Source of the DNA: Ilumatobacteraceae bacterium
GTDB taxonomy: Bacteria > Actinomycetota > Acidimicrobiia > Acidimicrobiales > Ilumatobacteraceae
NCBI GenBank assembly: GCA_023262255.1
Contig: JALRBT010000006.1
Location: 9,660 to 43,778 of the forward strand
Direction: 5' to 3'
DNA length: 34,119 bases
The position numbers were made by a program, and so were the translations under genes. Under the pieces are notes generated by a model that made no database searches, was not told the DNA's origin, and saw only the letters and a list, made by a program, of their open reading frames with translations. Shown one piece after another: positions 24,624-27,686 of this stretch. The stretch's first letter is position 1; the number at the start of each line of letters is the position of its first letter.

Positions 24624-25262
24624 TTAGACGGCGTCGTTGGTGGTGATGTGCGTCGGCGTAACGAGTGCGATGAACTCGCCGGCGACCAGATTGCCATCCC
24701 GGTCCACGGCAAAGTGGCAGCCCTCCAGGTTGTGGAGTCGTCGATCGTGCACCTGCATCATGCGCCGCACCGTTCGAATGACGCCACTGTGACTCACCAC
24801 CAGCACGCGCGACGAAGAGCCGGTGATGTGGCGTGACGACGTGAGGACGTCGCGCAGCGCCTGCTCCGCCCGCGCAAACACCACCTCCGGGGCCTCGTGC
24901 CCCGGGGGAGTGCGACGGTTGCGCAGGTAGTCGGGCCACCCGGCTTCGATCTCGGGTTCGCGGAGGCCCTGCCACGGACCAACGTCGGTCTCGACGAGAC
25001 GGTCGTCGACTCGTACGTCGCCAACACCGAGCCGTACGGCGATGATCTCGGCGGTTTCACGTGCCCGCGAGAGGGAACTCGATGTCACCCCGTTGATCAC
25101 GATGCCGTCCGTGAGTAAGCGTTCGGCGGCTGCCCGTGCTTGTGCACGGCCGATCGGTGTGAGTCGGGTGTCGGCGCGTCCCTGCCATTTACCCAGCACG
25201 TTCCACTCCGACTCGCCGTGACGGACGACGATTGCCGAGTTCGAAGTGGTCTGTTCGGTCAT
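24624..25262 (-). CDS. Histidine phosphatase superfamily (phosphoglycerate mutase-like) protein
   Basis: SAIVVRHGESEWNVLGKWQGRADTRLTPIGRAQA (RHGE), SSSLSRARETAEII, VLVVSHSGVIR. ATG 25262. Confidence 0.9.
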   Translation of the reverse strand: MTEQTTSNSAIVVRHGESEWNVLGKWQGRADTRLTPIGRAQARAAAERLLTDGIVINGVTSSSLSRARETAEIIAVRLGVGDVRVDDRLVETDVGPWQGLREPEIEAGWPDYLRNRRTPPGHEAPEVVFARAEQALRDVLTSSRHITGSSSRVLVVSHSGVIRTVRRMMQVHDRRLHNLEGCHFAVDRDGNLVAGEFIALVTPTHITTNDAV

Positions 25263-25305
25263 GAGATGCAAGGAGGCAGAGTAGTGGCTTCTGTACGCTG
25301 ACCTC

Positions 25306-26028
25306 GTGGCGCGCTTGCTTCTCTTCGCATCGGCTCGTGAGGCGGCAGGTCGTTCACGCGAAATCGTTGCCGGCACCACCGTGGCGGAAGTATTGAACAC
25401 GGCCACGCAGCAATTCGGAACCTCGTTCGAAGCCGTGTTGGGATCCTGCACGGTGTGGCTGAACGGAGAGGAATGTAGTCCCGACGCCCAGGTGAGCGAC
25501 ACGGACGAAGTAGCGGTCCTGCCGCCGGTATCCGGTGGCGCCGACCTTTCGGCACTCACGCTCGAGCAAGTTCGGGCGCAGCGACAGGAGTTGCAGGAGG
25601 AGGAGGACGCGGTTTCGTTCGCCCGTCGAATGGCACAAGGGCGCCTGGACATCGCTCGCAATGAGCAGCGTCGTCGCAGTGATGGCGATCTGACGAATGC
25701 CGACATCACCGATGGCATCACCCGGGTGTTCGCCGAAGAGCGCGGGTCTGGCTCCAACCGTCCGCCACGGGACACTGCCGTGATGGTGGATCATCCACTG
25801 GTGGCCGAACTCGAGACGTTGTGCGTTGAGGTTGGCTTTGGAAGTTTGCGACAACTTGACGACGACGAACTGGAGGGTTGCTGTCAGCGACTCTCGGAGT
25901 TCGAGTCGCGGGTGTCGTCCCGGAGGAAATCTTTGTTCGGTCAGATCGACGAGTTGTCGAACGAACTGGTCCGTCGTTACCGAGCGGAGGCCACGAACAT
26001 CGACTCGCTGCTCGACGAAAAGCGTTGA
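25306..26028 (+). CDS. MoaD/ThiS-like ubiquitin fold fused to an RsiG-like (c-di-GMP-responsive anti-sigma family) coiled coil
   Basis: aa 1-78 MARLLLFASAREAAGRSREIV...VWLNGEE...DTDEVAVLPPVSGG (MoaD); aa 79-240 LTLEQVRAQRQELQEEEDAVSFARRMAQGRLDIARNE...RLSEFESRVSSRRKSLFGQIDELSNELVRRYRAEATNIDSLL (RsiG-like, E100-S104-R107-Q111-D115). Confidence 0.82.
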   Translation: MARLLLFASAREAAGRSREIVAGTTVAEVLNTATQQFGTSFEAVLGSCTVWLNGEECSPDAQVSDTDEVAVLPPVSGGADLSALTLEQVRAQRQELQEEEDAVSFARRMAQGRLDIARNEQRRRSDGDLTNADITDGITRVFAEERGSGSNRPPRDTAVMVDHPLVAELETLCVEVGFGSLRQLDDDELEGCCQRLSEFESRVSSRRKSLFGQIDELSNELVRRYRAEATNIDSLLDEKR

Positions 26029-26055: not shown

Positions 26056-26412
26056 GTGGACATGCCCGGTAGAAAACGCCCGGATCTCGGTTCGTTCATT
26101 CGACAGCAGCGAGAGATTGCACAGCAGTCGATCCGTGACTTGGCCAAGCGCGCCGGAGTCTCGAATCCGTACCTGTCGCAGATCGAGCGAGGTCTGCGTA
26201 AACCGTCGGCCGACATCTTGCAGCAGATTGCACGCGCGCTGGAGATTTCCGCCGAGACGCTCTATGAGCGCGCTGGAATGCTCGATACGAAGGAATCCCA
26301 GGGCAATGCGGTCGTGGATGCCATCGCCACCGACCCACGTTTGTCCGACGACCAAAAGCAGGCAATGTTGGCGATCTACCGCAGTTTCGTGGCGGACGAC
26401 ACGACCAATTGA
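26056..26412 (+). CDS. XRE-family helix-turn-helix regulator
   Basis: LGSFIRQQREIAQQSIRDLAKRAGVSNPYLSQIERGLRKPSADILQQIARALEISAETLYERAG. Confidence 0.9.
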   Translation: MDMPGRKRPDLGSFIRQQREIAQQSIRDLAKRAGVSNPYLSQIERGLRKPSADILQQIARALEISAETLYERAGMLDTKESQGNAVVDAIATDPRLSDDQKQAMLAIYRSFVADDTTN

Positions 26413-26459
26413 GGCCCGACCTCGTCGGTGGCCGCCGCTTCCAGATAGGTTCAGAATCC

Positions 26460-27686
26460 ATGGCTGCTTCCCCTGTGCAGCGTGTTGCTGTGCTGTCCCT
26501 GCACACCTCGCCACTCGCCCAACCCGGCGTGGGCGACGGCGGCGGCATGAACGTGTACGTTCGTGAACTCACCTCCTCGTTGGCACGACTCGGCGTGGAG
26601 TGCACCACGTATACGCGCGCCTGGAAGCGCGGTTTGCCCGACGTGGTGGAGATCGAACCGAATCACCGACTGGTGCACGTGCGTGCCGGAGACGTGGATC
26701 TTCCCAAGGAGCAGCTGGTGGAAATCGTCCCGGAGTTCACCGACACGGTGAGCCACCACCTGCGCACGCATTCGCCCGCCGATGTGATCCACGCCAATTA
26801 TTGGTTGTCCGGGTTGTCGGGCCATCAACTGAAGCACGACCTGAACTTGCCGCTCATCACCACCTTCCACACGTTGGCCCGGGTGAAGGCGTTGCACGGC
26901 GATGCCGAGTCGGTTGAACGCCAGAAGATCGAGTCGTCAATCATCGGATGCAGTGATGCAATCTTCGTTTCGTGCGAGGAGGAACGTCGGCAGTTTCGCG
27001 AACTGTACGGCGCATCACCAGGCACGGTCGAGGTGATCACGCCAGGAGTCGACCGCGCGTACTTCTCGCCGGGAAGTCGAGTGGGTGCCCGAAGTGCGTT
27101 GGGCCTCGGTAAACAGCCTGTGTTGTTGTTCGTCGGACGAATCCAGCCGTTGAAGGGACTCGATGTCGCCATCGAAACCCTCGCCACGCTGGAACGTCGA
27201 GATGCCGTGCTCCTCGTAGTGGGCGGAGCGAGTGGCAGGGAAGGTAATCGGGAGTACGCGCGGATGGTCGCACTTTCCGAACGGCTTGGAGTTGCCGATC
27301 GAGTGCACTTCATCGATCCACAGCCGCACCACCTGCTCTCCACCTTCTACCGCGCGGCCGACGTGGTGTTGGTTCCCTCGCGAAGCGAGAGTTTCGGACT
27401 GGTTGCGCTCGAAGCATCGGCGTGCGGCACACCGGTGGTTGCCACCGCAGTGGGTGGGTTGATGTCGCTGATCGCCGATGGCGTCAACGGCTATCTCGTG
27501 CCGCAGCGTGATGCCTCATTGTTCGCAGCCCGAGTCACACAGGTGTTGGACGATCCCCACCTTGCGGCCCGACTGAGCGACGAGGCGGTGATTCGCAGTC
27601 AGCGGTATTCATGGCAGCACGCTGCGATGCGTATGCGCCGAACGGTGGCGGAGTTTGCCGCTCGCGATCTCGTGCTCTGCAGTTGA
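26460..27686 (+). CDS. mshA: D-inositol-3-phosphate glycosyltransferase (MshA-like, mycothiol biosynthesis)
   Basis: VAVLSLHTSPLAQPGVGDGGGMNVYVRELTSSLARLGV, VIHANYWLSGLSG, LLFVGRIQPLKGLDVAI, VPSRSESFGLVALEASACGTPVVATAVGGL. Confidence 0.88.
   Translation: MAASPVQRVAVLSLHTSPLAQPGVGDGGGMNVYVRELTSSLARLGVECTTYTRAWKRGLPDVVEIEPNHRLVHVRAGDVDLPKEQLVEIVPEFTDTVSHHLRTHSPADVIHANYWLSGLSGHQLKHDLNLPLITTFHTLARVKALHGDAESVERQKIESSIIGCSDAIFVSCEEERRQFRELYGASPGTVEVITPGVDRAYFSPGSRVGARSALGLGKQPVLLFVGRIQPLKGLDVAIETLATLERRDAVLLVVGGASGREGNREYARMVALSERLGVADRVHFIDPQPHHLLSTFYRAADVVLVPSRSESFGLVALEASACGTPVVATAVGGLMSLIADGVNGYLVPQRDASLFAARVTQVLDDPHLAARLSDEAVIRSQRYSWQHAAMRMRRTVAEFAARDLVLCS

Follow-up and report, generated by a model that had tools for sequence, protein, structure and literature searches.

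A natural MoaD-RsiG fusion in aquatic Ilumatobacteraceae, probably the precursor of two otherwise ordinary proteins

In eukaryotic ubiquitin-ribosomal protein precursors, an N-terminal beta-grasp protein is released at a Gly-Gly. Burial of the Gly-Gly tail should bar adenylation or thiocarboxylation, as is established for MoaD (PMC3227635, PMC4443979). MoaX of Mycobacterium tuberculosis, whose MoaD is encoded without a free C-terminus, is cut between Gly82 and Ser83, and this cleavage is required for activity (PMC4326299); the mycobacterial protease was not identified in that study. DRJAMM of D. radiodurans cuts MoaD-MoaE (PMC8832034), and HvJAMM1 cuts SAMP1-MoaE, an engineered fusion in the archaeon Haloferax volcanii, exactly after the VSGG tail, cleavage being undetected once the GG or the VSGG had been deleted (PMC4443979). 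The passages of PMC1779556 considered here describe ThiS-ThiG, ThiS-ThiF and ThiS/MoaD-sulfite reductase fusions, which are likewise sulfur-carrier domains joined to other proteins, and make no mention of a fusion to RsiG, to a membrane protein or to MoaC. The initial annotation knew of no description of MoaD joined to RsiG, and a search for the two together found nothing relevant in the open-access literature, subscription papers lying outside its scope.

The window analysed here is a stretch of 34,119 nucleotides from an Ilumatobacteraceae bacterium, and it carries such a fusion between a divergent gene and two downstream genes that are given as context:

24624..25262, minus strand: divergent histidine phosphatase gene (Pfam His_Phos_1, E 1.7e-38)
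25294..25299, plus strand: likely -10 element TACGCT just 5' of the GTG start, from conservation by comparison
25306..26028, plus strand: moaD-rsiG fused gene, 240 aa plus stop, kept in 12/12 complete genus members
25306..25539, plus strand: MoaD (ThiS-family) domain, aa 1-78, ending LPPVSGG (Pfam ThiS)
25534..25539, plus strand: Gly77-Gly78 codons (GGT GGC), invariant in 13/13 fused proteins, with predicted cleavage after Gly78
25540..26025, plus strand: twin-motif RsiG, aa 79-240 (Pfam RsiG; 6pfj; Foldseek 6pfv)
25603..25650, plus strand: c-di-GMP motif 1, E100-X3-S104-X2-R107-X3-Q111-X3-D115 (alignment of 98 homologues)
25903..25950, plus strand: c-di-GMP motif 2, E200-X3-S204-X2-R207-X3-F211-X3-D215 (same alignment)
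26062..26412, plus strand: XRE-type HTH regulator (Pfam HTH_3, E 7.2e-14)
26409..27686, plus strand: MshA-like glycosyltransferase (Pfam Glycos_transf_1; NCBIfam MshA, E 2.8e-112, below cut-off)

The reading frame is open without a break from the GTG at 25306 to the TGA at 26026-26028, as the initial annotation had stated, and its architecture and both of its family assignments were correct. In the HMM searches proposed there as a check, the two halves matched the ThiS and RsiG families respectively. The Pfam ThiS match covers aa 5-78 (E 1.9e-13, above cut-off), in agreement with the MoaD domain claimed for aa 1-78, while the NCBIfam moaD match (E 2.5e-12) lies below its curated cut-off. Both the ThiS/MoaD fold and the Gly-Gly tail are present, and LPPVSGG was found in 13/13 fused proteins, but the Gly-Gly is not the encoded C-terminus, as RsiG comes after Gly78. 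In the RsiG half, Pfam PF22802 matched two segments (E 1.4e-23; score 82.7 bits, cut-off 27), and the closest PDB entry to this half was RsiG of S. venezuelae (6pfj, aa 76-236, E 4e-16); elsewhere in the genome no second RsiG HMM match was found, leaving the fused locus as the only one. An AlphaFold model of the fusion (mean pLDDT 71.8) consists of the MoaD domain followed by two long helices (86-126 and 186-228), with residues 75-78 forming a low-confidence segment (pLDDT < 50). The best PDB match of this model in Foldseek was 6pfv, the RsiG-WhiG-c-di-GMP complex (E 1.8e-6, TM 0.68 by target), so that the antiparallel coiled-coil fold of RsiG is found in the model; mycobacterial MPT synthase appeared further down the list.

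The motif E100-S104-R107-Q111-D115, noticed initially, held up: the published consensus E-X3-S-X2-R-X3-[Q/H]-X3-D is complete on helix 1, with S, R, Q and D in all 98 aligned homologues and the first position being E in 74 and D in 24. The initial annotation missed the second motif, which was found here on the second helix and fits four of five consensus positions, with Phe211 where the published motif has Gln or His. Its E, S, R and D were again present in 98/98 homologues, and the fourth position was F in 91 of the 98. The RsiG half belongs to the twin-motif RsiGs, one motif position being unusual, and binding of c-di-GMP and WhiG is predicted for it from the conserved motifs, from the fold and from WhiG and GGDEF proteins being encoded in the genome. 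It shares with RsiG of S. venezuelae the two c-di-GMP motifs, the second at four of five positions, the antiparallel coiled coil and a WhiG encoded in the genome (31-34% identity in structural alignment), and differs in the added N-terminal MoaD and in the Phe of motif 2.

An architecture survey, another check suggested initially, placed the fusion in one genus of aquatic Ilumatobacteraceae and, as a separate event, in another genus (G462). The genus sample comprised 13 genomes; the fusion was uninterrupted in all 12 with a complete gene, at 66-100% identity, and the thirteenth gene is interrupted by a contig end. Named relatives are metagenome-assembled genomes of Ilumatobacteraceae or unspecified Actinomycetota, two of them with bay sample names, and two further named relatives are labelled Bifidobacterium breve, evidently wrongly. 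By the RsiG tree, the fusion must have originated twice, once in the genus and once in G462, although the branch of G462 is long. In the rest of the family, moaD and rsiG are adjacent separate genes (76 unfused junctions sampled), and the rsiG start codon overlaps the moaD stop in 50 of these pairs. GGAGG lies within the Gly-Gly codons of 41/76 unfused genes versus 1/13 fused genes; in this position it can serve as the rsiG ribosome-binding site. From these junctions, the fusion is best read as having arisen by loss of the overlapping stop and start between neighbouring moaD and rsiG. Separate translation of rsiG from an internal start was considered and rejected, since no internal start that has a ribosome-binding site is conserved among the fused genes.

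The putative -10 element TACGCT occurs in 12/12 genus members, and in most of the family a hexamer of TAnnnT type is found at the same distance from the start; this suggests that the mRNA of the fused gene may be leaderless, beginning at MoaD. Across the family, a possible double use of GGAGGx as Gly-Gly codons and as rsiG Shine-Dalgarno sequence may explain why one to two residues follow the GG. Individual junctions had further peculiarities. In L004 (G202), an in-frame TAG follows GGF between moaD and rsiG (1735-1737 of the oriented locus), and the TAG-interrupted frame offers no ATG, GTG or TTG start for rsiG; L046 (G465) also has an in-frame TAG after GGF, its sole rsiG start being a TTG 33 nt downstream. 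In L020 (G341), a long MoaD extension after the GG overlaps rsiG in another frame.

Both halves show ordinary purifying selection. Taking as conserved the MoaD positions that are identical in at least 95% of 75 unfused MoaDs, 23/23 were unchanged in the 12 genus fusions, as were 23 of 24 family-conserved RsiG positions. Median dN/dS was 0.119 (MoaD) and 0.173 (RsiG) in fused genes and 0.147 (MoaD) and 0.113 (RsiG) in unfused ones, values that come from few comparisons, some of them near saturation. By comparison with their relatives, the MoaD and RsiG halves look functional. The residue after LPPVSGG was Ala or Ser in 13/13 fused proteins versus 24 of the 70 unfused ones with residues after the GG, although these counts are not independent. 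Because 70/76 unfused relatives carry such residues, mostly one or two, trimming was probably already needed there, and trimming after GG seems to predate the fusion.

Family searches in the 13 genus genomes were used to assess gene content. MoaE was present in all 13, and MoaC and E1 in 12 each; the genome analysed here has an E1 with an intact N-terminal rhodanese domain, and both expected partners of an MPT synthase carrier, MoaE and a MoeB/MoeZ-type E1, are encoded in it. Active Moco synthesis is likely in the genus. No other MoaD was found by the family searches in genus genomes, and the one further short ThiS protein resembles CysO/SAMP1 and ends in PAVAGGR. In L092 and L093 this ending lies one residue past the GG, and the CysO-like protein may need trimming too. 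Weak third ThiS matches lie in frames of ~660 aa, a length that points to the TGS domain of threonyl-tRNA synthetase as their probable source. A JAMM protein (Prok-JAB) was matched in 12/13 genomes, with no match in G479 (77% complete), and the active-site motif of the own genome's JAMM is intact: HSHTQTEAYPSATD. The JAMM gene occurs in unfused genera as well, and adjoins a cysM-like gene in G482, so its presence is not peculiar to genomes with the fusion.

The partner expected for RsiG was found throughout: all 13 genus genomes have a FliA_WhiG match above cut-off. Open frames of 572-726 aa had raised the possibility that WhiG is itself fused in the genus; this was rejected, as the extra frame is the shadow of an upstream gene and WhiG begins at a normal Met, giving about 245 aa. 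GGDEF proteins were likewise present in 13/13, and in the own genome both carry EAL motifs and the active-site variants A/SGDEF. Outside the genus, G122 (L009; 96% complete) carries rsiG although no WhiG passed the family cut-off, and L120 (G240) keeps moaD with neither an adjacent rsiG nor a WhiG above cut-off, an apparent joint loss.

Taken together, the fused gene probably codes for a precursor that a JAMM protease cuts after Gly78 into two otherwise ordinary proteins. With the overlapping stop and start lost, a single polypeptide would be made, setting a 1:1 synthesis ratio of MoaD and RsiG, and the genome's Mec+-like JAMM metalloprotease would cut it after Gly78. MoaD would be released with a free Gly-Gly end, which the rhodanese-E1 could adenylate and sulfurate, and would join MoaE in MPT synthesis, both steps following the known pathway. 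RsiG would be released with a near-native N-terminus and, armed with c-di-GMP, would restrain the sigma factor WhiG; the terminus left by a cut after Gly78 is close to that of the separate proteins (e.g., ADLSALTLEQ versus MSETDFSGLDLAQ in G557). As in ubiquitin precursors, the beta-grasp part is N-terminal and ends in Gly-Gly, with release predicted; the partners and the protease differ, and no conjugation role is claimed. MoaX and bacterial MoaD-MoaE share the N-terminal MoaD joined at Gly-Gly to a second protein, and MoaX shares the lack of a free MoaD C-terminus, but here the partner is an anti-sigma factor instead of an MPT synthase subunit and the cleavage is a prediction. SAMP1-MoaE is similar in its VSGG tail followed by a second protein, whereas MoaD-RsiG is natural and bacterial.

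The initial annotation had left open whether the MoaD part is a repurposed structural or docking domain or is cleaved off after the GG; the comparisons favour the second and disfavour the first. An uncut fusion, in which MoaD merely helps RsiG to dock or stay soluble and CysO provides sulfur for Moco, would be compatible with the intact fold and motifs of RsiG in the fused form and with the CysO/SAMP1-like protein, which the single E1 could charge. Still, retention of the LPPVSGG tail together with all family-conserved MoaD positions is unexpected for a docking domain, MoaE is retained in every genus genome, and in E. coli moeB complementation M. tuberculosis-type CysO with MoeZR gave background activity and did not support Moco activity, whereas MoaD1 and MoaD2 worked (PMC3227635). 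I consider an uncut fusion unlikely. As no other MoaD was seen and MoaE is kept, release of MoaD is the simplest reading; the preserved tail and constraint of this sole MoaD, the presence of JAMM and sister MoaDs with one to two residues past the GG favour cleavage.

Cleavage might instead be regulated, with JAMM activity or sulfur/Moco demand setting the release of active RsiG and linking carrier status to c-di-GMP/WhiG control. One polypeptide does physically join the two proteins, a JAMM protease has been shown to reactivate a linked carrier in an archaeon (PMC4443979), and the full-length MoaX that was left over hinted that cleavage is slow or regulated (PMC4326299). Against this, nearly all relatives have moaD and rsiG as separate genes, G240 keeps moaD without rsiG and WhiG, and GG-joined fusions to unrelated partners point to generic processing, making regulated release rather improbable. 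The fusion by itself is no evidence of cross-talk between MoaD and RsiG. The initial proposal that it couples c-di-GMP control to sulfur-carrier/Moco chemistry was not supported: moaD and rsiG have long been adjacent, moaD is retained in G240 with no rsiG beside it, and the fusion resembles the mere loss of a stop/start overlap. An assembly or sequencing error, which had been named as a possible refutation in the form of a frameshift joining two ORFs, can be dismissed for practical purposes. The named sequences are all metagenome-assembled, but 12 separately assembled genomes and the independent event in G462 carry the fusion, both halves are under purifying selection and the start signals are lost, so that such an error is exceedingly improbable.

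MoaD is also joined to other proteins in the wider group. In 15/15 class-level Acidimicrobiia loci (L190-L203 and L209), which were picked for long open frames and from which no frequency can be derived, the LPPVSGG or IPPVSGG tail of MoaD runs straight into a polytopic membrane protein of 248-263 aa, and in 12 of these loci rsiG lies 2.2-3.5 kb downstream. Two examples of the membrane-protein partner were scanned and gave no confident Pfam match. At the order level, one genome (G079, L117) still has the MoaD-membrane protein fusion, with a weak cytidylyltransferase-like match, while other genomes of the order have the three genes in series. Outside the class but within the phylum, two genomes (L204 in G623 and L205 in G627) have MoaD joined to MoaC after LPP[LV]SGG.

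MoaD as a cleavable N-terminal leader may thus be general in these bacteria, and the membrane-protein fusions suggest that many Acidimicrobiia may use a ubiquitin-like N-terminal leader that is cut at Gly-Gly. For moaD and rsiG, a stepwise route can be followed from neighbouring to overlapping genes and on to fusion. With the MoaD-RsiG protein, a transcription regulator would join MPT synthase among the partners in cleavable MoaD fusions. Whether a bacterial JAMM protease serves in maturation generally can be tested directly on such MoaD fusions.
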